Assembly (NCBI GenBank): GCA_016784025.1
Contig: JADHVL010000001.1
Location: forward strand, 1-64,000
Direction: 5' to 3'
DNA length: 64,000 bases
Source: Fidelibacterota bacterium
GTDB taxonomy: Bacteria > Fidelibacterota > UBA8477 > JABMPR01
The position numbers and the translations under genes were made by a program. The notes beneath the pieces were generated by a model. It was not told where the DNA came from and did no database searches. It saw only the letters and a list, made by a program, of their open reading frames with translations. Of this stretch, positions 45,309-63,155 are shown one piece after another; position 1 is the first letter of the stretch, and each line of letters opens with the position of its first letter.

Positions 45309-45416
45309 TCTTGAATAATCCAGATCAAACCATCTCATATAACAATAATGACAGGTTGATACTGATGGTTCAGTCGGGAGAATCATAAAAAAAAGCTGGT
45401 ATTTGCTGTAGAATAA

Positions 45417-45433
45417 AGTATACTGAGTATACT
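45417..45433. promoter_or_regulatory. Locus operator, site 4 (upstream of the 45.5 kb operon)
   Basis: AGTATACT-G-AGTATACT, the perfect 8-1-8 palindrome, 37 bases upstream of the start at 45471. It is the best-conserved member of the set. Confidence 0.75.
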
Positions 45434-45470
45434 AATATAGCTGAAGACTATTTCAATTACAGGTAGACAA

Positions 45471-47084
45471 ATGAAAAGACGTGAGTTCTTAAAAAGTGTG
45501 GGTATTGGCTCAGCAAGTCTGCTCATCCCATCAACTGTCCTTGCCTTAAGCAAAAACAAAAAACCGACAGGTACGAGACCAAATATTCTCTACATCATGG
45601 CTGATGATCAAAATGCCAGTTTTGTGGGGTCCTATGGAGGCTGGATAAAAGACTTTGTCCAGACACCTACCATTGACAAACTCGCAGAAGAAGGTGCTCG
45701 GCTAACCAACTGCTTTAATACGAACTCACTTTGCGCCCCAAGTCGAGCTTCAATCATATCAGGTAAATACAGCCATAACTCAGGTGTTTATACGCTAAGG
45801 GAAGATATGAATACTGCAGGTTGGAACACCCTCCCTGTGGTTATGAAGAAATCCGGATACCAGACGGCCGCCGTTGGTAAATGGCATGTGCATGGGGACA
45901 ATCTGCATGGTCTGGATTATTACGCCCTGACAAAAACCTCCCAGGGACGCTATATCAATCCATCCATGTCAACCCCAGACGGAAAGCGGAACGAAGAAGG
46001 GCACAGCTCCGATGTTTACACAAACATCTCTATGGAATGGCTTGAGAAACGTGACAAAACACAACCCTTTTTTCTTATGCATCACTTCAAGGCAGCTCAT
46101 GGGCCCTGGCAGTATGCCCCCCGATACGAATCCTTATATCAGGATGTTGAAATCCCAGAACCACCTACTCTCCATGATGACTACAGCAATCGATTCGAAG
46201 GTGGTGTTGGCGTTAAAAAATCTAAAATATTCTCAAAAGATGGGACAGGTAGTTTAGCCTCCAGAATGCAGGGTTTGAATAAAAAGGGTGAACAAGGAGA
46301 GTGGCCCACTGGCAACCTGGATATCTCTGGTATGTCCGACAGCGAAATAAAAAAGGCGACCTATCAGAAATATGTAAAGGATTACCTGCGCTGTGTCAAA
46401 GGGATTGATGATAACGTCCTGCGACTGGTCAATTATCTTGAACAAGAAGGCATTCTGGATGATACACTTATCATCTACACCGCGGATCAGGGTATGTATG
46501 TGGGTGAACACGGCTTTTATGACAAACGTCTCGGGCTGGATGAGGGGATGCGCATGCCTTTCATAGCAAGATATCCAAAGGAAATTCAGGCTGGCGTTGT
46601 GTTGGATGACATAGTCAATAATGTTGATTTTCCAGAAACCATGATCGATTACGCCGAAGCAGAAATCCCAGCCGATATGCAAGGTTTCAGTTTCAGAAAG
46701 AATCTCAATGGGGATCCTGAGGCCCATCAACGAACTGCAACCTTCTACGCTTTCTATTCATCCGGCACTCCTCGTCATTATGGGATTCGCACCAAACATC
46801 ATAAGTTGTTGAAATATATGGGAAAAGATGGGTCAGCCATTGGTCAGGATCTGTTTGATATGGACAAAGACCCCCATGAGCTCAGAAGTGTGCTGAATGA
46901 TAAATCCTATGCTGGAGTACTAAAGAAATTAGAGTCTCAACTGAAGGATGAAATGCAGGCCATCGGCCTGAGTGAAGAGGATTTACCTGGTCGATGGAAA
47001 GCACCAGGAAAAAAAACCAAGAATCCAAAGAAAAGCAAAAAGACTGGGATGAAGAACAAAAAGAGTAAGAAGAAGAAATCCTAA
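45471..47084 (+). CDS. Tat-exported S1 sulfatase with Lys-rich tail
   Basis: The 537-residue protein has a Tat signal (KRREFLKSVGIGSASLLI), metal Asp45-Asp46, motif C88-A-P-S-R and a matching YTADQGMYVGEHGFYDKRL segment. It belongs with the 23804 and 54868 enzymes. After the catalytic domain it ends with a tail that is about half lysine (residues 510-537), which may hold the enzyme to acidic glycans. It is the first gene of the long operon reaching to 59.5 kb. Confidence 0.9.
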   Translation: MKRREFLKSVGIGSASLLIPSTVLALSKNKKPTGTRPNILYIMADDQNASFVGSYGGWIKDFVQTPTIDKLAEEGARLTNCFNTNSLCAPSRASIISGKYSHNSGVYTLREDMNTAGWNTLPVVMKKSGYQTAAVGKWHVHGDNLHGLDYYALTKTSQGRYINPSMSTPDGKRNEEGHSSDVYTNISMEWLEKRDKTQPFFLMHHFKAAHGPWQYAPRYESLYQDVEIPEPPTLHDDYSNRFEGGVGVKKSKIFSKDGTGSLASRMQGLNKKGEQGEWPTGNLDISGMSDSEIKKATYQKYVKDYLRCVKGIDDNVLRLVNYLEQEGILDDTLIIYTADQGMYVGEHGFYDKRLGLDEGMRMPFIARYPKEIQAGVVLDDIVNNVDFPETMIDYAEAEIPADMQGFSFRKNLNGDPEAHQRTATFYAFYSSGTPRHYGIRTKHHKLLKYMGKDGSAIGQDLFDMDKDPHELRSVLNDKSYAGVLKKLESQLKDEMQAIGLSEEDLPGRWKAPGKKTKNPKKSKKTGMKNKKSKKKKS

Positions 47085-47147
47085 TAGAGCCAACCGACGG
47101 ATGGGATCACCTGAATCCTTGGTCAAAAATTTTGGAGATCAGTACAA

Positions 47148-48698
47148 ATGGATCGTAGAGACTTCTTAAAGATCACCGCAATGGGAATTGCATCTACAGC
47201 CATACCCGCATTCAGTTTTCGGAAAAAAATGAAAAAACCAAATATCGTTCTGATGATGACAGACGATCAGGGTTGGGGTGATGTTGGCTTTAACGGGAAT
47301 ACTGAAATCTCAACCCCAAATCTGGATGGCATATGCGACGAGGGCGCAAATCTATATCACTTTTTCTCAGGCGGACCCGTCTGCTCACCCACACGCGGAA
47401 CCTGCCTTTCAGGCCGTCATTATTTCAGGTATGGAATCTGGCAGGCCAATAGCGGTAGACTTCCACGACAAGAATACACCCTTGCTCAGGGACTTAAAGA
47501 TGTGGGATACCAAACCGGTCATTTCGGGAAGTGGCACCTGGGTTCCCCTCATCCTGAATACACTGGTAAAGGGGGAGGAGGTAGCGACAAACATCTCGCC
47601 CGTCCCGAGTGGTTTGGATATGATAAATATTTTGTGACCCATCACGCTGTCAAAACCTGGGACCCATACGGACCTGATGGAAGTGAAATTGATACCACTG
47701 ATAATCCATACTGGGAGGATGGCAAAAGAGTCACCGAAAGGTTAACCGGTGATGATTCACGCATTATCATGGATCGGACCATTCCTTTTATCGAAAGCGC
47801 GGTCAAAGCAAAAAAGCCATTCCTGTCTGTCATCTGGTCACACACACCTCACGGTCCACTGGAAGCTGGTCCCGAATATGCAAAAATGTATGAGGCAAAA
47901 GGTTTGCCTAAGGGCAAGGTGAAATATTACGGGTCAATCACGGCTCTGGATGATCAGGTTGGCCGTCTCAAGAAAAAGCTTAAAGAATTAGGCCAATGGG
48001 ATAACACCATCATCTGGTTTTGCTCTGATAACGGTCCAGCTCACGATGTAAGAAATGGCGGTTATGGATCAACAGGCGGTATGCGTGGGAAGAAAAGTTA
48101 TCTGTTCAATGGCGGCGTCTGTGTCCCCTCATTCCTGTACTGGAAGGGCAAAGTTAAAGCTGGATCAACCATTAAAACTCCCCTGTCAACCCTGGACTTT
48201 TTACCTACTCTTTTTGAGGCAACGGGAGCGACCATGCCCGATAGTCGACCTGTTGATGGAGAAAACGTTCTGGATATTGTTTCCGGGGAAACAAAATCAC
48301 GGGAAAAGCCAATTCCATTCAGACACAAAAAATTAACGGCTCCCTGTCTGGCTCTCATTGATGATAAGTATAAATACTACACCAATTTCGATACGGAAGA
48401 GCCTATCGGAGATTTACTCTATGATATTTTTGCTGATCGAGCTGAAGCAAATAACCTCATTGACAAAAAACCCGAGACTGCTCATAAGATGAGAGCCTAT
48501 GCGTTGGAATTTCTGAAATCCTGCGAAAAAAGTCATTCCGGGCTGGATTACCCCAAAAACTCAGGCTATACCCCACTGGGTAGTTTTCAGGATATGGCCA
48601 ATATTCCCTGGGATCCCAATCAAAAGAAAAATAAAGCAATAAAAAAGAAGCGGCAGAAAAAAAATAAGCAGCGCAAGCAAAAGACAAAGAAATCATAG
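47148..48698 (+). CDS. Tat-exported S1 sulfatase with Lys-rich tail (paralogue of 43491)
   Basis: The 516-residue protein has a Tat signal (DRRDFLKITAMGIASTAI), metal Asp39-Asp40, motif C79-S-P-T-R and GKWHLGSPHPEYTGKG. The catalytic half is closely related to the 43491 sulfatase ('SGGPVCSPTRxTCLxGRHYxR'), so one arose from the other. The C terminus is a Lys/Arg-rich tail (about residues 495-516). It is followed nine bases later by the GH18-like gene. Confidence 0.9.
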   Translation: MDRRDFLKITAMGIASTAIPAFSFRKKMKKPNIVLMMTDDQGWGDVGFNGNTEISTPNLDGICDEGANLYHFFSGGPVCSPTRGTCLSGRHYFRYGIWQANSGRLPRQEYTLAQGLKDVGYQTGHFGKWHLGSPHPEYTGKGGGGSDKHLARPEWFGYDKYFVTHHAVKTWDPYGPDGSEIDTTDNPYWEDGKRVTERLTGDDSRIIMDRTIPFIESAVKAKKPFLSVIWSHTPHGPLEAGPEYAKMYEAKGLPKGKVKYYGSITALDDQVGRLKKKLKELGQWDNTIIWFCSDNGPAHDVRNGGYGSTGGMRGKKSYLFNGGVCVPSFLYWKGKVKAGSTIKTPLSTLDFLPTLFEATGATMPDSRPVDGENVLDIVSGETKSREKPIPFRHKKLTAPCLALIDDKYKYYTNFDTEEPIGDLLYDIFADRAEANNLIDKKPETAHKMRAYALEFLKSCEKSHSGLDYPKNSGYTPLGSFQDMANIPWDPNQKKNKAIKKKRQKKNKQRKQKTKKS

Positions 48699-48707
48699 AC
48701 CTATCCA

Positions 48708-49787
48708 ATGGGCTCAAAATTCAGAATAGTAATCTCCGCCATTGTCGCCCTAATTGTACTGAGTCTTTCTACCTGTACTTCCACGAATCCTACAGAGTCG
48801 ATTTCCACAAGACTAGTTCACCTTCCTGACTCTTCTGAATCTCCTGAAATCACAGCATTCTGGTGGAATGGGGGCTGGGATCACTATGATCCAGATTATA
48901 TGAAATACCTCGATGAATTCATCATTTTTGCAGTCGCTCCTAATCCTGAGACTGGTGAAATATTCATCGATTCTGTGGCTGAATCTACAGGTGAAATCTT
49001 TTATAAAAGAAATTCTGGACCAGGTCTATCCACTGAAATGCTTAAGCAAATTACAGCAGATGCTGATAAGTACCAGGTTCGTAAAACCCTGGGTATCAAT
49101 GGAATGGGGAAGAAAAAGACCATCTTTAACCCATTAGTTGAGAATGGGAATGAAACAAAATTCGCAAAAGAAATCCTGACCCTGTGTCGGACCTGGGGAA
49201 TCCAAAATGTAGATGTGGATTACGAGCATCCTAATAATGATGGTGATGTAGAAATCCTTACAGCGATAGTTCGAGCGCTCTACGATAACCTGAATCCTGC
49301 TGGAATCGGTGTTTCCATTGCAGTGGGACCGGGGCGGGAGTTCATGCAAAAATTTGTGAAGCAGAATCACCAGTATCTTTCAGCAATTAATCTGATGTCT
49401 TATCTACAGCCCTATGCCGGTTTTGTGAAATGGCTGGAATTGTATCACAATGAATTGGGAGTTCCTCGGGAAAAACTATTTGGAGGGATTGGGTTTTATA
49501 TCAAGAAAAAGGGAAAACCAAAAGAATCCCACAATTATCGGGATTTTGTTGAATGGTTCCCTGAGGGCAATATCCCAGATGAAATTACCCGAGTTGATCC
49601 AGATAATCTTGAGAATATGAAAACATTCCGTTTTAACAATTCTCATGAAACACTTTCCCAAAAGATTCAATATGTAAAAGACAAAGGCTTTGGAGGGATC
49701 ATGATCTGGGCTATCAACCATGATCTGCCCATGAGCGACGATCGCTCCATGTTGCGCTTTGTGCACAGTGAGGTTCATAAAAAATGA
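48708..49787 (+). CDS. GH18-like glycoside hydrolase, probable lipoprotein
   Basis: The 359-residue protein has an N-terminal hydrophobic signal (IVISAIVALIVLSL) followed by STC at residue 23, so it may be a lipoprotein. A TIM-barrel with the GH18 catalytic motif NVDVDYEHP (D-x-D-x-E; the Glu is the acid) lies near residue 165-170. 'GGIMIWAINHD' near the end matches the last strand with the conserved Trp. GH18 enzymes cleave GlcNAc linkages (chitinase or endo-beta-N-acetylglucosaminidase); the target here is unknown. It lies within the sulfatase operon. Confidence 0.85.
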   Translation: MGSKFRIVISAIVALIVLSLSTCTSTNPTESISTRLVHLPDSSESPEITAFWWNGGWDHYDPDYMKYLDEFIIFAVAPNPETGEIFIDSVAESTGEIFYKRNSGPGLSTEMLKQITADADKYQVRKTLGINGMGKKKTIFNPLVENGNETKFAKEILTLCRTWGIQNVDVDYEHPNNDGDVEILTAIVRALYDNLNPAGIGVSIAVGPGREFMQKFVKQNHQYLSAINLMSYLQPYAGFVKWLELYHNELGVPREKLFGGIGFYIKKKGKPKESHNYRDFVEWFPEGNIPDEITRVDPDNLENMKTFRFNNSHETLSQKIQYVKDKGFGGIMIWAINHDLPMSDDRSMLRFVHSEVHKK

Positions 49788-49826
49788 CTACGAAACTAGA
49801 TGAAAAATTATCACCCTACGTGTGGT

Positions 49827-49884
49827 CCCTGAGGCTCTCGAAGGGTGAACACACCAGCCAATTGACCCTTCGAGAGCCTCAGGG
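49827..49884. repeat. Perfect 20-bp inverted repeat (dispersed CCCTTCGA...TCAGGG element)
   Basis: CCCTGAGGCTCTCGAAGGGT (49827-49846) and its exact reverse complement (49865-49884) are separated by 18 bases. Related repeats lie at 36758-36778 and 59569-59586. The hairpin lies between the GH18-like gene and the next sulfatase and could fold in the mRNA. Confidence 0.8.
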
Positions 49885-49913
49885 TCCCGATCAACATAGA
49901 AAGCGACCAATAA

Positions 49914-51470
49914 ATGAAACGCCGTGAATTTCTTAAGTTTGCTGGAATTGGAACCCTGGGACTGGTGGCATGTGTACCGCCAACTCCAGTGCCTGTAAAA
50001 AAATCGGGTAAACATCCAAACATCATCTATATCCTGGCTGATGATCTGGGCTTTGGAGATGTGAGTTGTTTAAACCCTGACTCCAAAATACAAACCCCTT
50101 ATCTGGATCAACTCGCTGCCAGTGGGATCAAATTTATGGATGCCCATTCAAATTCAGCCGTGTGCACACCCACTCGTTATGGCGTATTAACGGGTCGCTA
50201 TACCTGGCGAACAACCCTCAAACGAGGTGTTCTCAAAGGTTTCTCCAAACCGCTTATTGCAAAAGACAGACTCACGGTTCCAGCTCTGCTGAAACAGGCC
50301 GATTACACCACCGCTTGTATAGGCAAGTGGCATCTGGGAATGGATTGGCCTACAAAAGATGGCAAAGAAGTCCAGAAGGGTCTTCAGAATGTAGATTTTA
50401 ACAAGGATATCCAGCACAATCCCCTGGATCTTGGATTTGACTACTACTATGGAATCTCGGCATCTCTGGGAATGGCACCTCATGTATTCATCGAGAATAG
50501 ACGCGTCGTCAAAGAGCCCACTATCTATGTAAAAAAGAAAAGTCCTGAAGCCAAAAAACTACTCAATGGACGTGAAGGCTGGATGGTTGAAGGCTGGGAT
50601 ATTCATGATGTATTACCACGGTTCAGAGATAAGGCTGTTGAGTTTATAGAAGATCATGCCAGCGCATCCCCTGAACAACCATTCTTCATGTATATGGCTT
50701 TGAATTCTCCCCATAAACCCATTGCTCCCAATAAAGAGTTTCGAGGGACAAGCAAAGCTGGGGAGTATGGCGATTTCGTTGTTGAAACGGATCATGCAGT
50801 AGGTCAGGTGGTTCAAGCTGTCAAAGATGCAGGAGTTGCTGATAATACACTGATCGTTTTTACCAGTGACAATGGTCCCGAGCGAATTATGTATGGTATC
50901 CATGAGGAATATGGACATGATGGTTCGGCTCAATTCAGAGGCTGCAAACGAGATAACTGGGATGGAGGGCACCGAATCCCCTTCTTTGCCGCGTGGCCCA
51001 ATGCAATTACTCCAGGACAATCAAGTCAGGAAATTATCTGCCTCACGGACATGCTGGCTACCTGTGCCGAGATCACGGGTCAGAAATTGCCGGATGATGC
51101 TGGTGAAGACTCTGTAAGCATGCTTCCAGCACTCAATACTTCGAATACAAAACCACTCCGGGAAGCGATTGTCCATCATTCTTCCAAAGGATTCTTTGCT
51201 ATCCGCAAAGGAGAATGGAAATTATTACTCCATGATGGATCAGGTGGAAATAAATATCCTGATATAACAACTCCAGAAGTGCAGTTGTACAACATGCGAA
51301 TCGATGAGACTGAAACTCAGGAATTCTCCGACCAGCATCCCGAAATTGTCACTGAACTGGCAACCCTGATGAAGCAATATGTGGTGAATGGACGCAGTAC
51401 AACTGGCCTGCCTCAGCAGAATGAAACATCTGAAAAATGGCATCAGTTGGATTGGATGCAAAGATACTAG
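49914..51470 (+). CDS. Tat-exported lipoprotein arylsulfatase A-like S1 sulfatase
   Basis: The 518-residue protein has a Tat signal (KRREFLKFAGIGTLG) ending in the lipobox LVAC (Cys20). It has metal Asp43-Asp44, motif C84-T-P-T-R, GKWHLGMDW and TSDNGPERIMYG. No close relative lies in this window. The pattern is that of the arylsulfatase A/GALNS-like subgroup (Y-C-T-P-T-R...YTWRTTL). It precedes the next sulfatase by eight bases. Confidence 0.9.
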   Translation: MKRREFLKFAGIGTLGLVACVPPTPVPVKKSGKHPNIIYILADDLGFGDVSCLNPDSKIQTPYLDQLAASGIKFMDAHSNSAVCTPTRYGVLTGRYTWRTTLKRGVLKGFSKPLIAKDRLTVPALLKQADYTTACIGKWHLGMDWPTKDGKEVQKGLQNVDFNKDIQHNPLDLGFDYYYGISASLGMAPHVFIENRRVVKEPTIYVKKKSPEAKKLLNGREGWMVEGWDIHDVLPRFRDKAVEFIEDHASASPEQPFFMYMALNSPHKPIAPNKEFRGTSKAGEYGDFVVETDHAVGQVVQAVKDAGVADNTLIVFTSDNGPERIMYGIHEEYGHDGSAQFRGCKRDNWDGGHRIPFFAAWPNAITPGQSSQEIICLTDMLATCAEITGQKLPDDAGEDSVSMLPALNTSNTKPLREAIVHHSSKGFFAIRKGEWKLLLHDGSGGNKYPDITTPEVQLYNMRIDETETQEFSDQHPEIVTELATLMKQYVVNGRSTTGLPQQNETSEKWHQLDWMQRY

Positions 51471-51478
51471 GGTATTGA

Positions 51479-53239
51479 ATGGAACGTCGTGAGTTTTTAA
51501 AGATTGCCGGGAGAACGCTTGCAATGGCGGCCGTCCCATCGTTGCTGGCTGGAAAATCCATGCAACCCAATGTTATCTTGATTCTTACAGATGATCAGGG
51601 CTACGGAGAGTTGGGGTGTACAGGGAATACGGTCATTAAAACTCCTTTTCTGGATCAAATGTATGCTGAATCCAGCCGCCTGAATGATTTTCATGTCAAC
51701 TCAGTATGCTCTCCATCCCGGGCAGCCATTCTTTCAGGCAAATATTCAAGTCATGTGGGTATCTGGCATACCGTAGGTGGGCGAGAAATCCTTAATCGTG
51801 ATGAAACCCTCATGCCTCAACTTTTCCAGGCCAATGGCTATCGTACGCAGATGGTGGGGAAATGGCATCTCGGTGACAACTATCCCTATCGACCCGAAGA
51901 TAGAGGGTTTGATGAGGTATTCCGTATAGGGGGCGGAAGTCCCGGTCAGGTTCCTGATTATTGGGGTAATGGAATCTTTGATCTCCACTATTGGAATGGT
52001 AAAAAATGGAGACCATCCAAAGGCTTCTGCACCGATGTTCAATTTGATGCCACCATGAAATTCATCAAGGACTCCGGGAAAAATCCCTTCTTCTGTTATC
52101 TGGCAACTACGGCTGTCCATGCGCCCATCGGTGCCCCAGATGAGTATCTGGAGATGTATAAAGATTTACCAGAGCCCGTTCAAAAATTTTATGCCATGAC
52201 CACCAATGTGGATACCAATGTGGGTCGTTTAAGGAAATTCCTCAAACAGAATAAGCTTGACGATAATACCATCCTCATATTCATGACTGATAATGGTTCA
52301 GCTTGTGATAAAAAGGATAAATACAAGCTTCACAACGGCGGGATGCGGGGGAAAAAGGGTTCTACCTACGATGGTGGACACCGAGTTCCCTGCTTTATCC
52401 ACTGGCCAGCAGGCGGGATCAGTCGGGGTATGGATATCGAGGAGCTAACTGCTCATATCGATTTACTACCCACGCTAATGGATGCCTGTGGGCTGGAGCG
52501 AGGACCTGAAATCCAGTCAGATGGTCGCAGTCTTCTGGAACTGTTGAAAGGTAAATCTAAGACCTGGTCAGATCGAACACTTGTCACTGAATCCAAGGTC
52601 AAAAAACGAGCCGAAATGTATGCATCGGCTGCGATTATGACTGAGCAGTGGCGTCTGGTGGACAAGGGAAGACAATTATACGATATCGAAAAAGATCCGG
52701 GACAAAAACAGGACCTTGCAACCAGTCATCCGCAAATAGTTGAGCAACTCCAGACTGATTATCAAAGCTGGTATCAATCGGTGGAAGAAGGGTTTTCACC
52801 CATCAATCGTATTGTTGTCGGTGCTCCAGAAGAAAACCCGACTCGTTTAACCTGTATGGATGTGTATCCAGTTGAGGGAGCCAATGCAGGTAAGATTGTC
52901 TGGAATCAAAGTCAGCTTCTCAAAGGCAATCGCAACCACGGGAGGTGGCTATTGGAGGTTGCTAAAACTGGAGAATATGAATTTGAATTGCGACGCTGGC
53001 CTGTTGAATCTGGTTTGAAATTTTCTCAAGCACCCAGGAAGGCTAAAAAGGTGATTTACACAGAAGCACATTTGAAGATTGGGGATCGGGAACAAAGGCG
53101 CCCTGTCGATATGAATGAATCAAGTGTGAAATTCTCTATGAAATTGGATCAGGGACCGCTTGAATTGGAAGCACTTCTCTTCGAAAAGGGTGGGGAAATT
53201 ACCTCGGCCTATTATGTGGAAATTTTAAAGAAACATTAG
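51479..53239 (+). CDS. Tat-exported S1 sulfatase with C-terminal beta-sandwich
   Basis: The 586-residue protein has Tat signal ERREFLKIAGRTLAMAAV, metal Asp38-Asp39, motif C77-S-P-S-R and GKWHLGDNYPYRPEDRGFDE. Beyond the catalytic domain (about residue 430) an all-beta domain of about 150 residues follows. The 61326 sulfatase carries the same domain ('RIVVGxxxxNPxR', 'YEFxLxRWP'), so the two are paralogues. The added domain may bind substrate. A short in-phase repeat lies just after the stop. Confidence 0.9.
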   Translation: MERREFLKIAGRTLAMAAVPSLLAGKSMQPNVILILTDDQGYGELGCTGNTVIKTPFLDQMYAESSRLNDFHVNSVCSPSRAAILSGKYSSHVGIWHTVGGREILNRDETLMPQLFQANGYRTQMVGKWHLGDNYPYRPEDRGFDEVFRIGGGSPGQVPDYWGNGIFDLHYWNGKKWRPSKGFCTDVQFDATMKFIKDSGKNPFFCYLATTAVHAPIGAPDEYLEMYKDLPEPVQKFYAMTTNVDTNVGRLRKFLKQNKLDDNTILIFMTDNGSACDKKDKYKLHNGGMRGKKGSTYDGGHRVPCFIHWPAGGISRGMDIEELTAHIDLLPTLMDACGLERGPEIQSDGRSLLELLKGKSKTWSDRTLVTESKVKKRAEMYASAAIMTEQWRLVDKGRQLYDIEKDPGQKQDLATSHPQIVEQLQTDYQSWYQSVEEGFSPINRIVVGAPEENPTRLTCMDVYPVEGANAGKIVWNQSQLLKGNRNHGRWLLEVAKTGEYEFELRRWPVESGLKFSQAPRKAKKVIYTEAHLKIGDREQRRPVDMNESSVKFSMKLDQGPLELEALLFEKGGEITSAYYVEILKKH

Positions 53240-53254
53240 AAAACAACGTTAAAA

Positions 53255-53285
53255 GCAACTTTGGAAGCAACTTTGGAAGCAACTT
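53255..53285 (+). repeat. Short tandem repeat of 12 bases
   Basis: GCAACTTTGGAA occurs twice in tandem and is followed by a partial third unit. It lies between the sulfatase and the GH29 gene, upstream of the likely start at 53309. Confidence 0.7.
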
Positions 53286-53308
53286 ATAAAACATTTGGAA
53301 TGACTAAT

Positions 53309-54772
53309 ATGAACTTGAATCAAAAGAGCACTGTTAAAGTGATCGCGCTGTGTATCAGCAGTCTATTTATTTTATCATCATTAATTGCAGCTGAGGTACC
53401 AAGGAATGCATCTCCAGAGCGTATGGAAGAATGGCGTGACTGGAAGTTTGGACTATTTATCCATTGGGGACCATTTGCCCAGGCTGGCGCTCCCAATGGT
53501 CGAATATCGAGCATGCGCAAGGATTTGGAAGCAGGTTTGAATTATTATAAAACTTTTAATCCCGTCAAATATGATCCCAACCAATGGGCAAAGCTCGCCG
53601 GTGAAGCTGGAATGCGCTATGCTGTATTGGTTGCCAAGCATCATGATGGATTCTGCAATTGGGATTCCAAGGTCACTGAAAGAACCATTACCAATCCAGA
53701 CTGCCCCTGGAGCAAATCAAAAAATCCAGATATTGTGGGTGAATATGTCAAAGCATTCAGAAAGGCAGATCTGAAAGTTGGTCTGTACTCCTCACATCTG
53801 AATTATTCAGATCCAGGTGGCATGGGGGCAATGATTGATGCCCAGCCGGGTGCAAAACGTAAATCGGTGAATCGTTGGGTTGAGGACTACAAGGAAAGAG
53901 CTCCTGAATTGTGGAAGAATTATGTACAGCAGGAATATGATCAGCTCTCTGAGCTCATGGGAAATTACGGTCCCATTGATATTGTCTGGTTTGATATTCA
54001 CTGGCCTAAAAATGGAAGTGAGGATGCTGCTCCCATCTACCAGATGATTCGTGAGAAGCAGCCGAATATCATTTTTGATAATCGTGGTACCCTCGATTAT
54101 GTAGATTATAAAGTCCAGGAACAATGGATTCCCAACGTACCACCCAAAACAGAATTCTGGGAATTTAACTGTCCTACTGCCAGCAGTGGAGGAGGAGGTT
54201 TCTGGTATAAGGGTGAAGATGCAGTTTACAGGACAGGTGAGGAACTTTTATACATCCTGGTAGATGTGGTTGGAAAAGGGGGCAACTTCCTCCTGAATGT
54301 CAGTCCCAAACCTGATGGCAGCATTGCACAACAAGAAGTTGATGCCTTAAAGGGGATTGGAACCTGGATGGATAAAAATAGTGAAGCCATCTATGGGACA
54401 ACCGCCAGTCCATGGGGTGATCCTCCAGCCTGGGGCCGAATATCGACTAAAGGGAATCGTCTCTACCTCATGGTTTGGGATTGGAAAAAAGGATCAGAGC
54501 TCACTCTGGATATTCCAGCGAAACAGGTCAAGAAAGTCTCCCTGCTCGCTGACAATAAAAAAGTCAAATACTCCAAAGCGAAGGATGGGATCAAGATCAA
54601 GCTGTCAACCTCTGCACCTGACAAATATGTCTCAGTTATTGCAGTGGACTACATAGGTGATCTTAAGGCCGACCAAAAATGGTCCAAACCAGTTAAACAT
54701 GCCAAATCTGATGTCTGGCATTTTGATAAAAAATCAGGCAAGCAGGAAAAAGGATTTCCGCCAAAACCATAG
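53309..54772 (+). CDS. GH29 alpha-L-fucosidase (second)
   Basis: The start at 53309 gives a signal peptide (VKVIALCISSLFILSSLIAAE) and a 487-residue protein; an upstream TTG at 53261 adds only repeat-derived residues. GH29 signatures are KFGLFIHWGPFAQAG (46-60), KHHDGFCNWDS (110-120) and IVWFDIHWP with predicted nucleophile Asp229. It resembles the first fucosidase only in the family core. It lies in the middle of the sulfatase operon, so desulfation and removal of fucose would be coordinated. Confidence 0.9.
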   Translation: MNLNQKSTVKVIALCISSLFILSSLIAAEVPRNASPERMEEWRDWKFGLFIHWGPFAQAGAPNGRISSMRKDLEAGLNYYKTFNPVKYDPNQWAKLAGEAGMRYAVLVAKHHDGFCNWDSKVTERTITNPDCPWSKSKNPDIVGEYVKAFRKADLKVGLYSSHLNYSDPGGMGAMIDAQPGAKRKSVNRWVEDYKERAPELWKNYVQQEYDQLSELMGNYGPIDIVWFDIHWPKNGSEDAAPIYQMIREKQPNIIFDNRGTLDYVDYKVQEQWIPNVPPKTEFWEFNCPTASSGGGGFWYKGEDAVYRTGEELLYILVDVVGKGGNFLLNVSPKPDGSIAQQEVDALKGIGTWMDKNSEAIYGTTASPWGDPPAWGRISTKGNRLYLMVWDWKKGSELTLDIPAKQVKKVSLLADNKKVKYSKAKDGIKIKLSTSAPDKYVSVIAVDYIGDLKADQKWSKPVKHAKSDVWHFDKKSGKQEKGFPPKP

Positions 54773-54867
54773 CAGGGCGTTCTATCAAATTCAAGCTTTT
54801 GCCTCATATGTCTCTGATGGTGTGTCGTGGATTTGAACACTGAATGAATTGATTTGAGTATAGGGTC

Positions 54868-56592
54868 ATGGAACGAAGACAATTTCTGAAAATAGTGTCT
54901 CTGGCATCCGTAAGTATGCTAGGGAATGTTCCATTAATTGCCGCTGAAAAACGTCCCAATATCCTCTTTATAATGTCAGATGATCATTCCTCTGAAGCCA
55001 TTGGGGCTTATGGAGGAAGATTGGCCAAACTAAATCCGACCCCCACCATTGATAAACTGGCAGCAGAAGGCATCATCTGCAGAAATACATTCTGCACTAA
55101 TTCAATCTGTAGCCCAAGCCGGGCTTCAATTCTTACGGGTCAATACAGTCATACCAATGGTGTGACTTCCCTGGGGGGACGGGTTGCTGAAAAGGATCAA
55201 ACCTTGCCGCTCAATCTTCGCCAGGCAGGTTATCAAACTGCTGTTGTGGGAAAGTGGCACCTGAACACCCAGCCTCTATCCTTTGATTTTTATAAGGTTC
55301 TCAAGGGGCAGGGAAACTACGATAATCCTACTTTTTTTGAACGTGAATCCCCAAGAGCCAAGGAAGTAAAGTCCCAAGAAACTGGCTATTGCTCTGATTT
55401 GATCTACGAAAATTCTGTGAAGTGGTTAGAGCAAAGGGATAAAAGGAAGCCCTTCGCCTTGTTTTATCATTTCAAAGCTCCTCATGGTCCCTGGAAATAT
55501 CATGATCGTTATGCTTCCCTGTACAGGGATCTTGACATGCCTGAGCCTGAAAGTTTATGGGATAATAAGGAGCATGGGTCTCTTGCTACCCGCGGTCATA
55601 ATGACGAACTCATCACTCAGATTGGCTCTTCAGTTGGACGCAGGCATCGTTCCAGGACCCAGATTAGATATCTGAAAAAGGAACTTGCCAGACAGGGCAA
55701 GAAGTCACTTGTGGACAACCTGGACAATCTCTCTGATGATGAAATAAAGGGGATGTCGTATCAAGCTTATGTCAAGGGCTATCTCCGGTGCGTCAGGGGA
55801 GTGGATGACAATATTAGAAAGATGTTGGAATTTCTAAAAGCAGAAGGTCAGTTGGATAACACCATCATCGTTTATACCTCAGACCAGGGCATGTTTCTGG
55901 GTGAGCACGATTTCATTGACAAACGCTGGATGTATGAGGAATCATTACGTATGCCGTTTATTGTTCGATATCCACGGGCGATAAAGGCTGGTACCGCTAC
56001 GGATGCCCTGATCAACAATACAGACTTTGCGCCCATGTTGCTTGATTATGCCGGTGTGAAGACCCCTGGGAGCATGCAGGGCACCAGTTTCAGACCAATT
56101 CTCGAAACCCGAAAAGAACCAGATGATTGGCGCACAGCCACCTACTACAGGTATTGGCTACACATGGCACATCACTATAATCCAGCGCACTTTGGAATTC
56201 GAACCAAGGAATGGAAGCTCATTTTCTTTTATGGTCAACCAGAGAAAGTTCCAAAAGAGGGGAAAAAGAAATCTCCCAAATCAATCTTTACTCCACCTGG
56301 TTGGGAGCTGTATAACATGCAAGATGATTTTCAGGAGATGAATAATCTCTATGGAAAGCCAGGATATGCAAAGATCACCAAACAGTTAAAGCGTGAGCTC
56401 AAGGAACTGCGTGAGGAACTTGGTGATTCCGACGATGACTTTCCACATATCAAAGTGGTGGTAGAGCGACATTGGGATGATGATTTGAAGGAATCCCTGA
56501 AAATCTCAAATCATCTTAGCGAAAATGCAGACGAGCTGAATTCATTCGAGAAACCAGAAAAGCTTAAGAAATCAAAAAAATCAAAAAAATAA
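54868..56592 (+). CDS. Tat-exported S1 sulfatase with Lys-rich tail, slippery end
   Basis: The 574-residue protein has Tat signal ERRQFLKIVSLASVSMLG, metal Asp38-Asp39, motif C81-S-P-S-R and YTSDQGMFLGEHDFIDKRW. It belongs with the 23804 and 45471 enzymes. The last codons encode LKKSKKSKK and contain two A-AAA-AAA heptamers in the zero frame, the second just before the stop. A -1 shift there leads into the GH97 frame. See the GH97 entry. Confidence 0.9.
   Translation: MERRQFLKIVSLASVSMLGNVPLIAAEKRPNILFIMSDDHSSEAIGAYGGRLAKLNPTPTIDKLAAEGIICRNTFCTNSICSPSRASILTGQYSHTNGVTSLGGRVAEKDQTLPLNLRQAGYQTAVVGKWHLNTQPLSFDFYKVLKGQGNYDNPTFFERESPRAKEVKSQETGYCSDLIYENSVKWLEQRDKRKPFALFYHFKAPHGPWKYHDRYASLYRDLDMPEPESLWDNKEHGSLATRGHNDELITQIGSSVGRRHRSRTQIRYLKKELARQGKKSLVDNLDNLSDDEIKGMSYQAYVKGYLRCVRGVDDNIRKMLEFLKAEGQLDNTIIVYTSDQGMFLGEHDFIDKRWMYEESLRMPFIVRYPRAIKAGTATDALINNTDFAPMLLDYAGVKTPGSMQGTSFRPILETRKEPDDWRTATYYRYWLHMAHHYNPAHFGIRTKEWKLIFFYGQPEKVPKEGKKKSPKSIFTPPGWELYNMQDDFQEMNNLYGKPGYAKITKQLKRELKELREELGDSDDDFPHIKVVVERHWDDDLKESLKISNHLSENADELNSFEKPEKLKKSKKSKK
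56574..56592 (+). promoter_or_regulatory. Candidate -1 ribosomal slippage site
   Basis: Two A-AAA-AAA heptamers (56574-56580 and 56583-56589) lie in the X-XXY-YYZ phase of the sulfatase reading frame, the second directly before the TAA. A -1 step continues into the open GH97 frame. Slippage is inferred from sequence only. Confidence 0.35.
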
Positions 56593-56609
56593 TTCTCTGT
56601 ATTTGTTTT

Positions 56610-58559
56610 TTGTCTGCATCTTTGAGCTCTATGGCTCAAGCCAGAGACATGGAAATAGTCAGTCCGGATGGAAGTATCTCTGCCAGGATAGGGCGGGATG
56701 CTGAACTGCATCTCACACTTGAAGTCAGCCGGGGTAGAGATTTAATTCTCCATCCATCGCCCATGGGTATCATCATCGATTCAATTGATCTTGGTTCTGG
56801 AGCTGAGATCATCACGCATGAGCCATATATAGTGAATGAATCCTATGATTTGCTCGGAGGACATTCCAGAGCCATAAATCATTGTACTGGCTCAAAAATA
56901 AAAATCAAAACCTCAGGACAGACCTGGACACTCGGCGTGAGAGTTTTTAATGATGGTGTTGCCTTCCAGTATATCTATCCAAACACTGGTCCTGTTAAGT
57001 TTACTGGCGAGTCAACCCAGTTCAATTTCAGTAAAGGTCTAAATGCCAAATACATGCTTCATAAACGGGCAGAAGAGAGTAAAATCTATACGGGAAAACT
57101 CTCTGATTTCTCCAGAAGCAAGACCAAACGAACCATGCCACCACTTTTGCTTTATTCTGATGATATGAGTGAATATATCATGCTCTTAGAGGCTGGTGGA
57201 TTTGATTTCCATGGGTACTCTCTGCTTCCGGAAATTCCAAAAGGAAATGTTGGCGGAGTAACCAGTCTGAAAGTGGATTATGCTGAAGCGGCTGATGGTT
57301 GGGACATTAATGGAGACATTGAAACTGCCTGGAAAGTTCTTTGCATTGTCAACTCACTGAATGAATTGGTGAATACTGACATCGTGACCAATCTTTGTCC
57401 AGAGCCAGATCCACAATTGTTTCCACGAGGAGTCCATGAGGATTGGATCAAGCCTGGCAAATCAACCTGGAATTGGTGGGCCAGGGTCAAAGTGGATTAT
57501 GAAAAACAGAAGGAGCTGATTGATTTAGCAGCTCAGATGGGAGCCGACTATCATCTCGTGGATATTGGCTGGGATTCCAAGTGGGGGAATGAAGCAAAAG
57601 GAGCCTATGATTTTCTGCAGGATCTGTGTGATTATGCTGGATCGAAAGGTATTGGTATCTTTGTTTGGAAGACTTCAGATGTCAGCTTGAACCTGGAATT
57701 GAAAAAAGCAGATCCTAAAAACAAGTTTACAAAGCTACAGGCCTATGATGTCAGCCGGAATCTTGATGAGATGCGAACCGAGGTGGAACGTATAGCCGCT
57801 ACAGGAGCAATAGGCATTAAGCTAGATTATATCAACAGCGAAAATTCCCAATGGAAACGATATATGGAGGATTTTCTGAAAGTTGCCGCTGAGAATCAAT
57901 TGATGGTAGATTTCCATGGATGTCCCATACCAGCTGGTGAAAGTCGCACCTACCCAAATGAAGTATCCAGAGAGGCTATCTGGGGAGGTGAAAAACTGAG
58001 AGGCGGTGGGGGTGCCAGGAAAATGCCCACATCCCATTACATTGATCAACTCTTTACTCGCCTGATAGCGGGTCATGCTGATTTTACTCCCGGTATTTTG
58101 AATCCTGAAAAAGGTTTAGGCTATACTCAAGCGATGCAATTGGCAGCTGCCATGATGTTCACCTCACCGTATTTGTGTTGGGCGGATCATCCGGACAATT
58201 ATCTTGCATCAGCAGGTCTGGACCTGATCCAAAGTCTTCCAACTACCTGGGATGAGACCCTGGTTTTGGAGGGGAGTGGGTTGAGCGATCTGGCCGTTTA
58301 TGCCCGGAGAAAAGGTGGGAATTGGTATGTGGCCGGAATCAATGGCCTGGCGAATGAAGTCCAAAAATATGATTTAAACTTGAACTTTCTGAATGAAAAA
58401 AAATACCTGGTTACACTCTACTCAGATGACTTAATCAAGGGATCGCCAGATATTGTGGCCAGCAAGCTGGTGAAGCGGCGAGGTGATCAGGTCAAGATCA
58501 AGATGCTTCCCAGCGGTGGGTTTATCGTTCGTTTAACCGAAGTTGAAACCCCCGAATGA
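56610..58559 (+). CDS. GH97 glycoside hydrolase
   Basis: The 649-residue product (from TTG 56610) has the GH97 N-terminal beta-sandwich (about 10-260) and a TIM barrel with VDIGWDSKWGN and IKLDYINSE, then a C-terminal beta domain. The family holds alpha-glucosidases and alpha-galactosidases. The frame is open upstream to 56568 and encodes a typical signal-peptide core (KKIILCICFLSASLSSMAQA). That stretch has no ATG, GTG or TTG before its core. The true start may be ATA, ATT or ATC, or entry by -1 slippage from the sulfatase. It overlaps the esterase gene by four bases. Confidence 0.85.
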   Translation: MSASLSSMAQARDMEIVSPDGSISARIGRDAELHLTLEVSRGRDLILHPSPMGIIIDSIDLGSGAEIITHEPYIVNESYDLLGGHSRAINHCTGSKIKIKTSGQTWTLGVRVFNDGVAFQYIYPNTGPVKFTGESTQFNFSKGLNAKYMLHKRAEESKIYTGKLSDFSRSKTKRTMPPLLLYSDDMSEYIMLLEAGGFDFHGYSLLPEIPKGNVGGVTSLKVDYAEAADGWDINGDIETAWKVLCIVNSLNELVNTDIVTNLCPEPDPQLFPRGVHEDWIKPGKSTWNWWARVKVDYEKQKELIDLAAQMGADYHLVDIGWDSKWGNEAKGAYDFLQDLCDYAGSKGIGIFVWKTSDVSLNLELKKADPKNKFTKLQAYDVSRNLDEMRTEVERIAATGAIGIKLDYINSENSQWKRYMEDFLKVAAENQLMVDFHGCPIPAGESRTYPNEVSREAIWGGEKLRGGGGARKMPTSHYIDQLFTRLIAGHADFTPGILNPEKGLGYTQAMQLAAAMMFTSPYLCWADHPDNYLASAGLDLIQSLPTTWDETLVLEGSGLSDLAVYARRKGGNWYVAGINGLANEVQKYDLNLNFLNEKKYLVTLYSDDLIKGSPDIVASKLVKRRGDQVKIKMLPSGGFIVRLTEVETPE

Positions 58560-59485
58560 TGCGCATTTTCCAAACAACATTATTCATTGTGCTAGGAGCA
58601 ATTCAATTGCTGGCCGTGCAGAAGTCCCAGGACACTCTAGCTCTGATATACACCAGAGGTGGTGGCTTTAAAGCCGATAAGATTGTGAAGTACAAAACCA
58701 TTGGTGAAAATGATCTATCCCTATACTGCTTCTATCCAGACGACTTCAATCCAGGTGACTCGAGGCCAGCCATTGTGTTCTTTTTCGGTGGCGGGTGGAA
58801 AGGGGGGAGTGTCCAACAGTTCTTTCCCCAAAGCAAATATCTGGCTTCCAGAGGAATGATAGCCATTTGCGCCCAATATCGTACTGCTAAACAGGGAGCT
58901 GAACCTTATGAATGTGTAGAGGATGGAAAATCCGCTATCCGCTATGTCAGAGGACATGCCCGAGAATTGGGTATCAATCCTCAGCTTATTGCAGCTGGAG
59001 GAGGATCGGCAGGTGGACATCTGGCAGCCTGTACGGCCACTATTTCTGATTATGACTGCCCAGAAGATGATCGATCAATATCAGCAATACCCAATGCGCT
59101 GGTATTATTTAGTCCGGTCTATGACAATGGTCCTCAGGGCTATGGATACGAACGGGTGAAGGATTATTACCTGTCTATTTCACCCATCGATAATCTGAAT
59201 GGTAAACAGCCACCCACTCTGGTATTCATGGGTGATCGTGATAAACACACACCGGTTGAAACCACTCAACGATATCAGCAATCCATGCTGGCGAATGGGA
59301 ATCACTGCCAGACCATCATTTATCCAGGGCAAAAGCATGGTTTTTTCAATATTCATAAGTCGAAGCAGCCAAAATATTTTATTGAAACAGCTGTCAAAAT
59401 GGATGGCTTTCTCAAAACGCTAGGGTTTATATCCGGTCCAGCTACCATTCATGAGTGGTTCAAAGATCAGGAAGGTACTGAATGA
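58556..59485 (+). CDS. Secreted alpha/beta-hydrolase, carbohydrate esterase-like
   Basis: The 309-residue protein starts in an ATGA overlap with the GH97 stop. A signal peptide (IFQTTLFIVLGAIQLLA) is followed by the hormone-sensitive-lipase-like order: oxyanion loop FFGGGWKGG (HGGGW in most relatives), nucleophile elbow GGGSAGGHLA near residue 145, and a late 'GQKHGFFN' with the catalytic His. Relatives (BD-FAE, acetyl-xylan esterases) remove acetyl or feruloyl groups. It is the last gene of the 45.5 kb operon. Confidence 0.82.
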   Translation: MMRIFQTTLFIVLGAIQLLAVQKSQDTLALIYTRGGGFKADKIVKYKTIGENDLSLYCFYPDDFNPGDSRPAIVFFFGGGWKGGSVQQFFPQSKYLASRGMIAICAQYRTAKQGAEPYECVEDGKSAIRYVRGHARELGINPQLIAAGGGSAGGHLAACTATISDYDCPEDDRSISAIPNALVLFSPVYDNGPQGYGYERVKDYYLSISPIDNLNGKQPPTLVFMGDRDKHTPVETTQRYQQSMLANGNHCQTIIYPGQKHGFFNIHKSKQPKYFIETAVKMDGFLKTLGFISGPATIHEWFKDQEGTE

Positions 59486-59565
59486 AAAATGAGAATTACT
59501 TCCGGTTGTACTGGTTTGAGAAATTGTGTAAAACTAATGGCACTTCATCATATGCGCTATGATGT

Positions 59566-59620
59566 CATGCTTCGAGAGCCTCAGCAAGACACATAGCTGG
59601 GCTCCCTGAGGTGGCACGCT
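59566..59620. repeat. Degenerate copy of the dispersed TTCGA-GCCTCAG repeat
   Basis: TGCTTCGAGAGCCTCAGC (59568-59585) followed by GCTCCCTGAGG (59601-59611) is an imperfect inverted pair like 49827-49884. It lies in the non-coding stretch between the esterase gene and the next operon. Confidence 0.5.
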
Positions 59621-59682
59621 TCTTTTGTAACAGAATTGCCAGGAAATGACTGCAAAAAGTACTGGACTTTATTCCCGAATAA

Positions 59683-59699
59683 AGTATACTAAATATATT
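59683..59699. promoter_or_regulatory. Locus operator, site 5 (upstream of 59.7 kb operon)
   Basis: AGTATACT-A-AATATATT, 36 bases before the start at 59736. It has the same 8-1-8 layout as the other four sites. Confidence 0.6.
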
Positions 59700-59735
59700 A
59701 TAGCTTAGCACCTTGTTTACCCAGAAAGGGTTATC

Positions 59736-61316
59736 ATGTCGAGATTTGGACATCCACAAAGAAGCCAGAATCCAATGGCTAGTGCAGTTGGTTTATTGCT
59801 TCTAGTCATGATCTCGAATAGTCCAATCTCAATTCTTGCTGATGTGCAGTTGCCTGCTCTGTTTCAAGACCATATGGTACTCCAGCAGATGACTGAAATT
59901 CCTGTGTGGGGCTGGGCAAATCCTGGAGAAAAAATTCATCTGGAGTTTGCGGATCAACAAAAAAACCTAGAAGCCAATGATGTTGGAGAATGGAGTACAT
60001 CTCTAACTCCCATACCATATGGCGGTCCCTATCAGATGACCATCTCAGCTGAAAATGAAGTCGTTTTGAAAGATATCCTGCTGGGTGAAGTCTGGCTTTG
60101 CTCTGGTCAGTCCAACATGGATTTTACGGTGTCAAAAGCCAAGGATTCTGAGATGGAAATTGCAGCTGCTGATTTCCCAAATATTCGACTGTTCAGCGTA
60201 AAGAAAGCGATGACTTATGATGGTCCCAATTCTGACTGTAACGGGAGCTGGACTGTCTGTTCTCCTGAGAGTATCAAAAAGTTCTCTGCCGTTGCCTATT
60301 ACTTTGGACGTGAAATTCATGAAGAGCTAGATGTTCCAGTCGGGTTGATTCAGGCATCATGGGGTGGAACGAGGGTGGAAGCCTGGACTTCACGTCAAGC
60401 GCTTGAATCCCATGAAGCTGGGGAATCCGCAATACAGAAGTATGAGCATGAACTGGCGACATTTGATCCACAACAGGCCGCCAGAGATTATGATGAACGT
60501 TTGGAGGCTTGGGAGAAGAAGAAACTTCGCAAGCCAAATGTCAAGAAACCAAAAAAGAAACCAAGTCCTGCTAAAAATAGAAATGCTCCAACAGGTCTTT
60601 TTAACGCCATGATCAATCCTACGATTCCCTTTGCCATTCAGGGAGTTATCTGGTACCAGGGTGAAGCAAACTCGAAAACTGAACAGGATGCCTATCAATA
60701 TCGCACTCTCTTATCATCAATGATCCAGAACTGGCGTCAGAGCTGGGATCAGGGCGATTTCCCCTTTTATTTTGTGCAATTACCTGCATTCGCATCAGAA
60801 AAGGTTTACTGGCCCATAATCCGAGAGTCCATGTCAGTTGTGAATAGCACAATTAAGAATACTGGTATGGCAGTAACTGTAGATCTGGATGAAACAAAAT
60901 TGCATCCCAAAAACAAGCAGGATGTGGGGTATCGATTGGCACTCCTGGCTTTGGGTGATACCTACCAAAGAGATATAGCTTTTTTAGGGCCTGAGGTTAA
61001 AACAGTGCGTCTCAAAGGATCTGAAGTGCTGATTCGCTTTAAATCTTTTGGTGATGGATTATCAACAACTCAAGCTGAATTATCAGGATTTGAACTAGCC
61101 GGAGCCGATGGTCAGTATCATTCAGCACAGGCGAATGTTATATCTTCGGGATTTTTTAAAAGAGAGCAGAATCAAGTAAGTGTGACTAGCCCAACAGTTT
61201 CAAATCCAGTATATGTCAGATATGCCTGGGCAAACGCACCGGTTGCCTCTCTGAAAAACAGTGCAGGGTTACCAGCCCCACCCTTTCAATTAGAAGTTCA
61301 TGCTTCAGGAAAATGA
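59736..61316 (+). CDS. SASA-type carbohydrate acetylesterase (sialate O-acetylesterase-like)
   Basis: The 526-residue protein has a signal peptide (about 14-35) and the SASA/CE20 order. An N-terminal beta domain (VQLPALFQDHMVLQQ...WGWANPGE) is followed by the SGNH-type GQSNM with catalytic Ser126, and GLIQASWGGTRVEAW near residue 208. The catalytic His is likely in DETKLHPKNKQDVGYRLA. These enzymes remove O-acetyl groups from sugars, often sialic acid or xylan. A charged Lys-rich loop (about 256-284) is unusual. AAAGGG lies just upstream. It starts the last operon. Confidence 0.88.
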   Translation: MSRFGHPQRSQNPMASAVGLLLLVMISNSPISILADVQLPALFQDHMVLQQMTEIPVWGWANPGEKIHLEFADQQKNLEANDVGEWSTSLTPIPYGGPYQMTISAENEVVLKDILLGEVWLCSGQSNMDFTVSKAKDSEMEIAAADFPNIRLFSVKKAMTYDGPNSDCNGSWTVCSPESIKKFSAVAYYFGREIHEELDVPVGLIQASWGGTRVEAWTSRQALESHEAGESAIQKYEHELATFDPQQAARDYDERLEAWEKKKLRKPNVKKPKKKPSPAKNRNAPTGLFNAMINPTIPFAIQGVIWYQGEANSKTEQDAYQYRTLLSSMIQNWRQSWDQGDFPFYFVQLPAFASEKVYWPIIRESMSVVNSTIKNTGMAVTVDLDETKLHPKNKQDVGYRLALLALGDTYQRDIAFLGPEVKTVRLKGSEVLIRFKSFGDGLSTTQAELSGFELAGADGQYHSAQANVISSGFFKREQNQVSVTSPTVSNPVYVRYAWANAPVASLKNSAGLPAPPFQLEVHASGK

Positions 61317-61325
61317 TTTGAGAAA

Positions 61326-63155
61326 ATGATGGACCGCAGGAAATTCTTAAAAACAGCTGGCCTAGTTTCCGCCGGTCTGGCAACCCAGGGATTTTCTAGC
61401 TCCAAATGGTTTAAGAAATCAAAACCCAATGTGGTCATCGTCATGACCGATGATCAGGGCATGGGTGATATGTCGTGTATGGGGAATCCCTATGTGCAGA
61501 CTCCTGTCCTGGATGAGTTATGGGCTGATTCCTATCGTTTGACCGACTACCACGTTTGTCCCACCTGTTCTCCTACGCGCGCTGGATTTTTGACAGGTCA
61601 ATATTCCAATCGAGTTGGCGCTCTATGGACGGTTCGCTCTCAGGAGCTGGTCTATCGCGACAAAATCATGATGGCGGATGTGTTTAAGGCAAACGGCTAC
61701 AGCACTGGCATGTTTGGCAAATGGCATCTCGGGGAAAATTATCCATTCAGACCTCAGGACCGTGGCTATGATCAGGTGACCATCCATGGTGGGGGTGCCA
61801 TCTCACAGAGCCCCGACTATTGGGGAAATGACTTGTTTGACGATACCTACTATGTAAATGGAAAACCCACAAACTTTGAAGGGTATTGTACAGATATCTG
61901 GTTTGATGAAGCCAGTAAATTTATTAAAAAGTCAGGTGACAAACCCTTCTTTGCCCATATTGCCACCAATATCGCTCATGTCCCTATGATTGCCCCAGAA
62001 GGCTACGAAGAGAAGTATCTGGATATGGGTCTTGATAGTTGGATGGCCAGATTTTATAGCATGATCCAGAACATGGATGAAAATCTAGGGCGACTCATTC
62101 AATTGTTGAAAGATGAGGGCAAACTGGATGATACTCTATTTATGTTCACCACTGATAATGGGTCCTCAGCCTTTAAACGCGTCATGGACGGGCAAACCCC
62201 TCTCAATGATCCCTTGAAACAATTTGAGCTACTCAACGGTGGGCTCCGGGGGCATAAAGGTCTGACCTACGATGGCGGACACCGCGTCCCCATGTTTATA
62301 AAATGGCCCAAAATGAATCTAAACGGCGGTAAAGATATCAATGCCTTGTGCGGCCATATTGATATTCTCCCAACCCTAATGGATCTTTGTGACCTGAAGT
62401 CCAAAGCCGCTGAGAACTTTGATGGACGCAGCCTGGCTCCAATCATCAGTGGTAAAATGAAAGACTGGAAGGATGATCGCGTACTGGTCAATGACAGTCA
62501 GCGTGTTGAGGAACCTGTGAAATACCGTCGGGGTATGGTTATGACCAGCACCTGGCGTCTGTTGTATTCAAATAAAAAGGATACCCCTCCAGAGTTGTAC
62601 AAAACAACTGACCGCGCCCAGCAAAATAATGTCTCTAAGCAATATCCAGAAGTTGTCAAGAAATTGGTGGCCGCCTATGATGTCTGGTGGGATGAATTAC
62701 TGCCAGATATGCAAAGGGTTGCTCGCATCGTGGTTGGTAATGATGCAGATAATCCGGCACGCATCTCATCCCATGAGATGAGAGGGGGCAAGGGGGATTT
62801 TCGTCACTCTGCTGTTGATAAGCTGGAAAACAAGAATGATGGATATTACACCCTGGAGGCTGATGTCTCCGGGACATATACCTTTGATCTTATGCGCTGG
62901 CCACCTGAGGCCATGGGACCCATTAATGGTCAACCCAAATGGCCGCTTACCAGAGGAAAAACCAAACAAATCAGCGTAAATCGGGCTGAGTTAAAACTGG
63001 ATGGAAAACCACAGTTCCGCGAAATCAAGTATGGAGATGAATTTGCATCCTTCACAGTGAAATTAGATAAAGGTCCATTCAAATTAGAAAACATGTTTTA
63101 TGAAAATGAAAAACCGGTTGTAGGAGCTTCCTACATCCGCGTGACCAGAGCATAA
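61326..63155 (+). CDS. Tat-exported S1 sulfatase with C-terminal beta-sandwich (paralogue of 51479)
   Basis: The 609-residue protein has Tat signal DRRKFLKTAGLVSAGLAT, metal Asp42-Asp43, motif C81-S-P-T-R and GKWHLGENYPFRPQDRGYDQ. Both the catalytic domain and the C-terminal beta domain match the 51479 sulfatase ('RIVVGNDADNPAR', 'YTFDLMRWPPEAM'). It follows the SASA gene by nine bases. Confidence 0.9.
   Translation: MMDRRKFLKTAGLVSAGLATQGFSSSKWFKKSKPNVVIVMTDDQGMGDMSCMGNPYVQTPVLDELWADSYRLTDYHVCPTCSPTRAGFLTGQYSNRVGALWTVRSQELVYRDKIMMADVFKANGYSTGMFGKWHLGENYPFRPQDRGYDQVTIHGGGAISQSPDYWGNDLFDDTYYVNGKPTNFEGYCTDIWFDEASKFIKKSGDKPFFAHIATNIAHVPMIAPEGYEEKYLDMGLDSWMARFYSMIQNMDENLGRLIQLLKDEGKLDDTLFMFTTDNGSSAFKRVMDGQTPLNDPLKQFELLNGGLRGHKGLTYDGGHRVPMFIKWPKMNLNGGKDINALCGHIDILPTLMDLCDLKSKAAENFDGRSLAPIISGKMKDWKDDRVLVNDSQRVEEPVKYRRGMVMTSTWRLLYSNKKDTPPELYKTTDRAQQNNVSKQYPEVVKKLVAAYDVWWDELLPDMQRVARIVVGNDADNPARISSHEMRGGKGDFRHSAVDKLENKNDGYYTLEADVSGTYTFDLMRWPPEAMGPINGQPKWPLTRGKTKQISVNRAELKLDGKPQFREIKYGDEFASFTVKLDKGPFKLENMFYENEKPVVGASYIRVTRA

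Follow-up and report, generated by a model that had tools for sequence, protein, structure and literature searches.

A GH97 glycoside hydrolase gene that probably starts at a non-canonical AUC codon within the end of an overlapping sulfatase gene in a Fidelibacterota bacterium

The infC gene (IF3) is known to start at an AUU, AUC, or AUA (AUH) codon: E. coli uses ATT and Streptomyces uses ATC (PMC5472188), and its start in S. aureus is also an AUH codon (PMC13009471). In infC, this codon is combined with a strong Shine-Dalgarno sequence, a conserved start position, and autoregulation. Other protein-coding AUH starts are those of ccpN and citZ (AUA) and cvfC1 (AUU) in S. aureus, which were proven by profiling or reporters, give lower output than AUG, and include an extended Shine-Dalgarno sequence in ccpN and cvfC1; AUA and AUU starts measured in this species yielded about 10-30% of the AUG output (PMC13009471). 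Switches from AUG to AUH are very rare in annotated genomes, with one (to AUU) among 61,358 ancestral AUG starts (PMC5622118), partly because annotation rarely allows AUH starts. Two other systems bear on the locus described here. In ATGA-type coupled operon pairs, the start region of the second gene lies in the 3' end of the upstream gene, in the -1 frame, and AUG is used, and bacterial -1 frameshifting, as in dnaX and IS elements, takes place at A-AAA-AAR heptamers.

The window (the whole stretch of 64,000 nucleotides analysed) contains, on its forward strand, a sulfatase gene of the SGSH_C type (54868..56592), a GH97 glycoside hydrolase gene (56580..58559), and a gene for a BD-FAE-like esterase (58556..59485; ORF list and Pfam). 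The sulfatase, identified from the ORF list, from Pfam (Sulfatase, 8e-57; SGSH_C, 2.5e-50), and from a syntenic ortholog with 84% identity in genome G012 of the same genus, has a Tat-like MERRQFLK leader at its N-terminus and is the upstream partner of GH97, with a Lys-rich 3' end that overlaps the GH97 frame. The GH97 enzyme matches the Pfam families GH97_N, Glyco_hydro_97, and GH97_C over the curated cut-offs (E 2e-18 to 6e-50), its closest homologs are 55-62% identical, its reading frame of 663 codons is intact, and it is predicted to be secreted, with a signal peptide at 56580-56642.

Direct reading of the junction bore out what the first-pass annotation had described. The sulfatase gene ends with tca(56572) aaa aaa tca(56581) aaa aaa taa(56590-56592) and thus holds two A-AAA-AAA heptamers (56574..56580 and 56583..56589), both in X-XXY-YYZ phase and the second followed at once by the TAA stop; a -1 shift at the second heptamer enters the GH97 frame, as had been claimed, and the first heptamer does likewise. 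The GH97 frame begins after an in-frame TAA (56565..56567), is open from 56568, and reads gaa ATC aaa aaa ATC aaa aaa ATA att ctc tgt att tgt ttt TTG(56610). Its translation over the start region is EIKKIKKIILCICFLSASLSSMAQA, i.e. E-I-K-K-I-K-K-I-I-L-C-I-C-F-L-S-A-S-L-S-S-M-A-Q-A from 56568, followed by the complete GH97 enzyme. The n- and h-regions of the signal peptide are therefore encoded 5' of the first canonical start codon: no ATG, GTG, or TTG precedes the hydrophobic core, as had also been noted, and the first one, the TTG at 56610..56612 (also in the ORF list), lies inside it. This TTG is unlikely to be the GH97 start; the next ATG in the frame is at 56631. Such an arrangement is unusual, since a signal peptide located wholly upstream of the first ATG, GTG, or TTG was clear in only 2 of 593 long ORFs (856 kb), namely GH97 and the gene at L056:14353.

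Three AUH codons compete as the GH97 start. The ATC at 56580..56582 is favoured because infC of the same genus starts with ATC AAA AAR, because the leader read from 56580 has an n-region, an h-region, and an AQA cleavage site of textbook form (signal peptide MKKIILCICFLSASLSSMAQA), and because its distance to the conserved SPD motif agrees within one residue with that in homolog L034, the N-termini themselves not being reliably alignable. A start at this codon, which likewise opens ATC AAA AAA, would produce a 13-nt overlap with the sulfatase gene. The other two codons, both read directly, are the ATC at 56571..56573, a possible alternative that would yield MKKIKKIILC..., and the ATA at 56589..56591, a possible start within an ATAA stop overlap (analogous to ATGA), which would leave the product without the Lys n-region. 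An AUH start reached by coupling was one of three explanations offered by the first-pass annotation, and it has become the best-supported reading, as infC, a secreted-protein gene, and probably pgeF of the genus use AUC or AUA; for GH97 itself, we infer the codon from the features given above. We consider it fairly probable that GH97 starts at AUC 56580 (with AUC 56571 and AUA 56589 as alternatives), coupled to termination of sulfatase translation.

Sulfatase, GH97, and esterase form a compact operon of overlapping genes in which GH97 comes second. Its start region overlaps the sulfatase stop, an arrangement that permits coupling, and coupling is proposed because the sulfatase TAA lies within about 10 nt of AUC 56580. 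Ribosomes ending the sulfatase at TAA 56590-56592 would thus be placed close to that codon and would initiate there through translational coupling, the leader being A-rich and lacking a Shine-Dalgarno sequence. This would give a product that begins I/M-KKIILCICFLSASLSSMAQA and a modest output of secreted GH97. This output may be low and IF3-sensitive; the choice of AUC 56580 and coupling as the driver are likewise proposals from the sequence. The start of the esterase gene and the stop of GH97 share a 4-nt ATGA (at 58556), and tight coupling thus appears to be the style of this operon. No Shine-Dalgarno sequence was found upstream of 56580, in contrast to infC and pgeF; many ATG genes in this genome likewise lack a strong one (25% with a 5-mer and 58% with a 4-mer).

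The locus therefore combines features of several described systems. With infC it shares the AUH codon and, in the same genus, the first codons ATC AAA AAR, but it lacks the Shine-Dalgarno sequence and its candidate start is known from one genome. With ccpN, citZ, and cvfC1 it would share a protein-coding AUH start with lower output than AUG, although the mechanism proposed for GH97 is coupling to the overlapping gene upstream. It resembles ATGA-type pairs in the position and frame of its start region, but would use AUC (or AUA in the ATAA overlap) instead of AUG.

The sulfatase ortholog in G012 is the only syntenic one found among the relatives. It ends with GAA ATT AAA AAG CTA ATG AAG TAA, contains no heptamers, and is directly followed not by GH97 but by the leader of a sialate-O-acetylesterase-like gene. 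The alignment (blastn) to the G012 site ends at window position 56570 and resumes at 59624, which defines a block (56571..59623) comprising GH97, the esterase gene, and a trailer; the left edge of the block falls within the A-rich tract. GH97 and the esterase thus form a block that is present or absent exactly at the sulfatase junction, through either a gain in one genome or a loss in the other. The GC and GC3 values of the block match those of the neighbouring genes. The same sulfatase-GH97 junction was found in no other genome, the 245 genomes of the phylum searched contain no close GH97 relative at E <= 1e-60, and none occurs in viral contigs; a scan of genome contigs yielded only five loci, all from other organisms, whose best segments are 49-64% identical. 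A search of eight genus relatives, which had no positive control, did not detect the esterase. No Rfam element was detected in 54500-60000. A promoter scan of 54700-59900 yielded 17 consensus matches versus 9.4 +/- 3.2 in shuffled sequences, matches of a kind that does not constitute evidence, and an internal promoter would supply no start codon.

Start codons of this type appear to occur elsewhere in the genus. The AUC start of infC (L108, G000:C14 about 19299-19550, minus strand) is conserved in this genome and 14 relatives: the start region reads GGGAGAGAA(T/C)AG-ATC-AAA-AAR, or a close variant, in 15 of the 15 genomes with a match, with a GGGAGAG element ahead of the ATC-AAA-AAR column. 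In nearly all of them, a stretch of 26 codons or more is free of ATG, GTG, and TTG; one carries a GTG a little upstream. A secreted-protein gene with no Pfam family at L056:14353-16245 (G000:C26:34353-36245) has ATA in its start column in three species (G000, G013, and G007), ATG in G009, G010, and G018, GTG in G012, and TTG in G006; these orthologs come from separately assembled genomes and have intact reading frames. G000 and G013 have another ATA three codons upstream, nearer an AAGG, which is a further start candidate. When 43 G000 ORFs were tested for a start-column switch in that synteny group, only this gene gave a clean result. In pgeF (Cu-oxidase_4; L124:4414-5175, G000:C1:104414-105175), 17 of 18 genomes share an ATC at the same column, 12 nt behind a stop codon and in most cases preceded by a conserved GGAGT(C/T); this genome offers no canonical start before codon 41. 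Two order-level relatives have an ATG start nearby. A weaker candidate is an ATA or GTA four codons further downstream, and in four genomes a GTG follows six codons after the ATC. The start of pgeF is probably this genus-conserved GGAG-N5-ATC. Judging from these alignments, AUC or AUA initiation appears to be used in three independent genes of the genus, to different degrees, and is clear by conservation in two of them (infC and L056:14353).

Among the alternatives, an error in the consensus or a strain polymorphism is unlikely. A single substitution, with ATG read as ATC at 56580 (or 56571), would suffice to hide an ordinary overlapping ATG start in the real or dominant genome, the source assembly is a 47-contig draft that is about 86% complete, and an ATG opens the homologs L031 and L032 (L034 most likely begins with TTG). 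Substitution errors seldom enter a consensus, however, and in this genome a canonical start is truly missing from no fewer than two or three further genes, a state also seen in independently assembled relatives.

It is quite unlikely that GH97 is poorly translated, or not translated, from a proper start as a result of damage when the block was joined, or that it is made as a leaderless cytoplasmic form from TTG 56610 or ATG 56631. The edge of the block falls exactly in the GH97 start region and 56580 has no upstream Shine-Dalgarno sequence; GH97 could have come in recently with its start damaged. Against this stand the intact 663-codon frame, the GC and GC3 contents similar to those of the neighbours, the intact overlapping gene downstream, and the full preservation of the signal peptide; a start at TTG 56610, inside the hydrophobic core, would abolish export.

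A sulfatase-GH97 fusion produced by programmed -1 frameshifting, another suggestion from the first reading of the junction, is very unlikely; the shift would take place at one or both heptamers, and the product might later be cut at the internal signal peptide. The heptamers resemble those of dnaX and IS elements in sequence and phase, both are perfectly in phase, the second abuts the stop, and a -1 shift gives the GH97 frame. In 289 genes of a 440-kb sample, however, in-phase A7 runs are at or below expectation (34 observed versus 44 +/- 7 expected from synonymous-codon shuffles), and an A7 directly before the stop is not unique to the sulfatase, occurring in 2 of 593 genes; the final ten codons of genes encode Lys at twice the frequency seen elsewhere. 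A frameshift stimulator would be a structure 5-9 nt downstream or an upstream Shine-Dalgarno-like element. Folding downstream of the heptamers is not significantly above that of shuffled sequences (z -0.5 for 103 nt and z -1.5 for 63 nt). The closest hairpin, starting some 30 nt past the second heptamer, is too distant to act as a stimulator; a 121-nt segment across the junction gave z -1.9 but contained no stem at the distance a stimulator needs, and no GGAG-type element was found upstream of the heptamers. Neither the site nor the fusion is conserved, as the G012 ortholog lacks both heptamers and GH97, and in a fusion the entire Sec signal would come to lie between two exported enzymes, the sulfatase with its Tat-like leader and GH97. 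Unlike dnaX and the IS elements, the junction has no unusual nearby structure, conservation, or functional reason for a fusion. The heptamers were accordingly rejected as a frameshift signal, on enrichment, downstream folding, and ortholog conservation. The last suggestion, a homopolymer miscount, is extremely improbable: A7 runs can be miscounted on some platforms and a single extra A would join the two frames into a real fusion ORF, but such a fusion would have an entire Sec signal peptide in its middle, and none of the three homologs examined with an intact 5' end (L031, L032, and L034) is fused to a sulfatase. Moreover, as the tract is devoid of G beyond 56568, an ATG could not be regained through any indel in the A-runs.

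As a rule, gene callers accept no start codons other than ATG, GTG, and TTG. AUH-started genes are consequently annotated without their signal peptides and their products are misplaced in the cell. AUH starts are already known and measured elsewhere, although rare, and GH97 would add a further case to them. Comparison within the genus turns a single odd start into a small set of AUC- or AUA-started genes, and the presence of several such genes in one genus is the broader, modestly interesting point. We suggest only tentatively, and with more doubt than confidence, that the genus tolerates AUC or AUA initiation well beyond infC (in infC, pgeF, the secreted-protein gene, and GH97) and that annotation mis-starts a noticeable fraction of its genes; if so, the IF3 level could co-regulate several unrelated genes.

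Three further observations were made. The region 43491-63155 of the window is a dense cluster of genes for sulfatases, an alpha-L-fucosidase, GH97, and esterases, which suggests the use of a sulfated fucose-containing polysaccharide. The prfB gene (RF2; L062 about 19580-19700, G000:C4) contains the classic +1 frameshift site AGG GGG CAT CTT TGA C, which lies in the reading frame of an ATG further upstream. At L067:7784-9064 (G000:C9, minus strand), a gene for a membrane protein that is MscS-like by eye has an N-terminus without a canonical start, overlapping a short ATG-led ORF in another frame; a frameshift or an unusual start is possible there.
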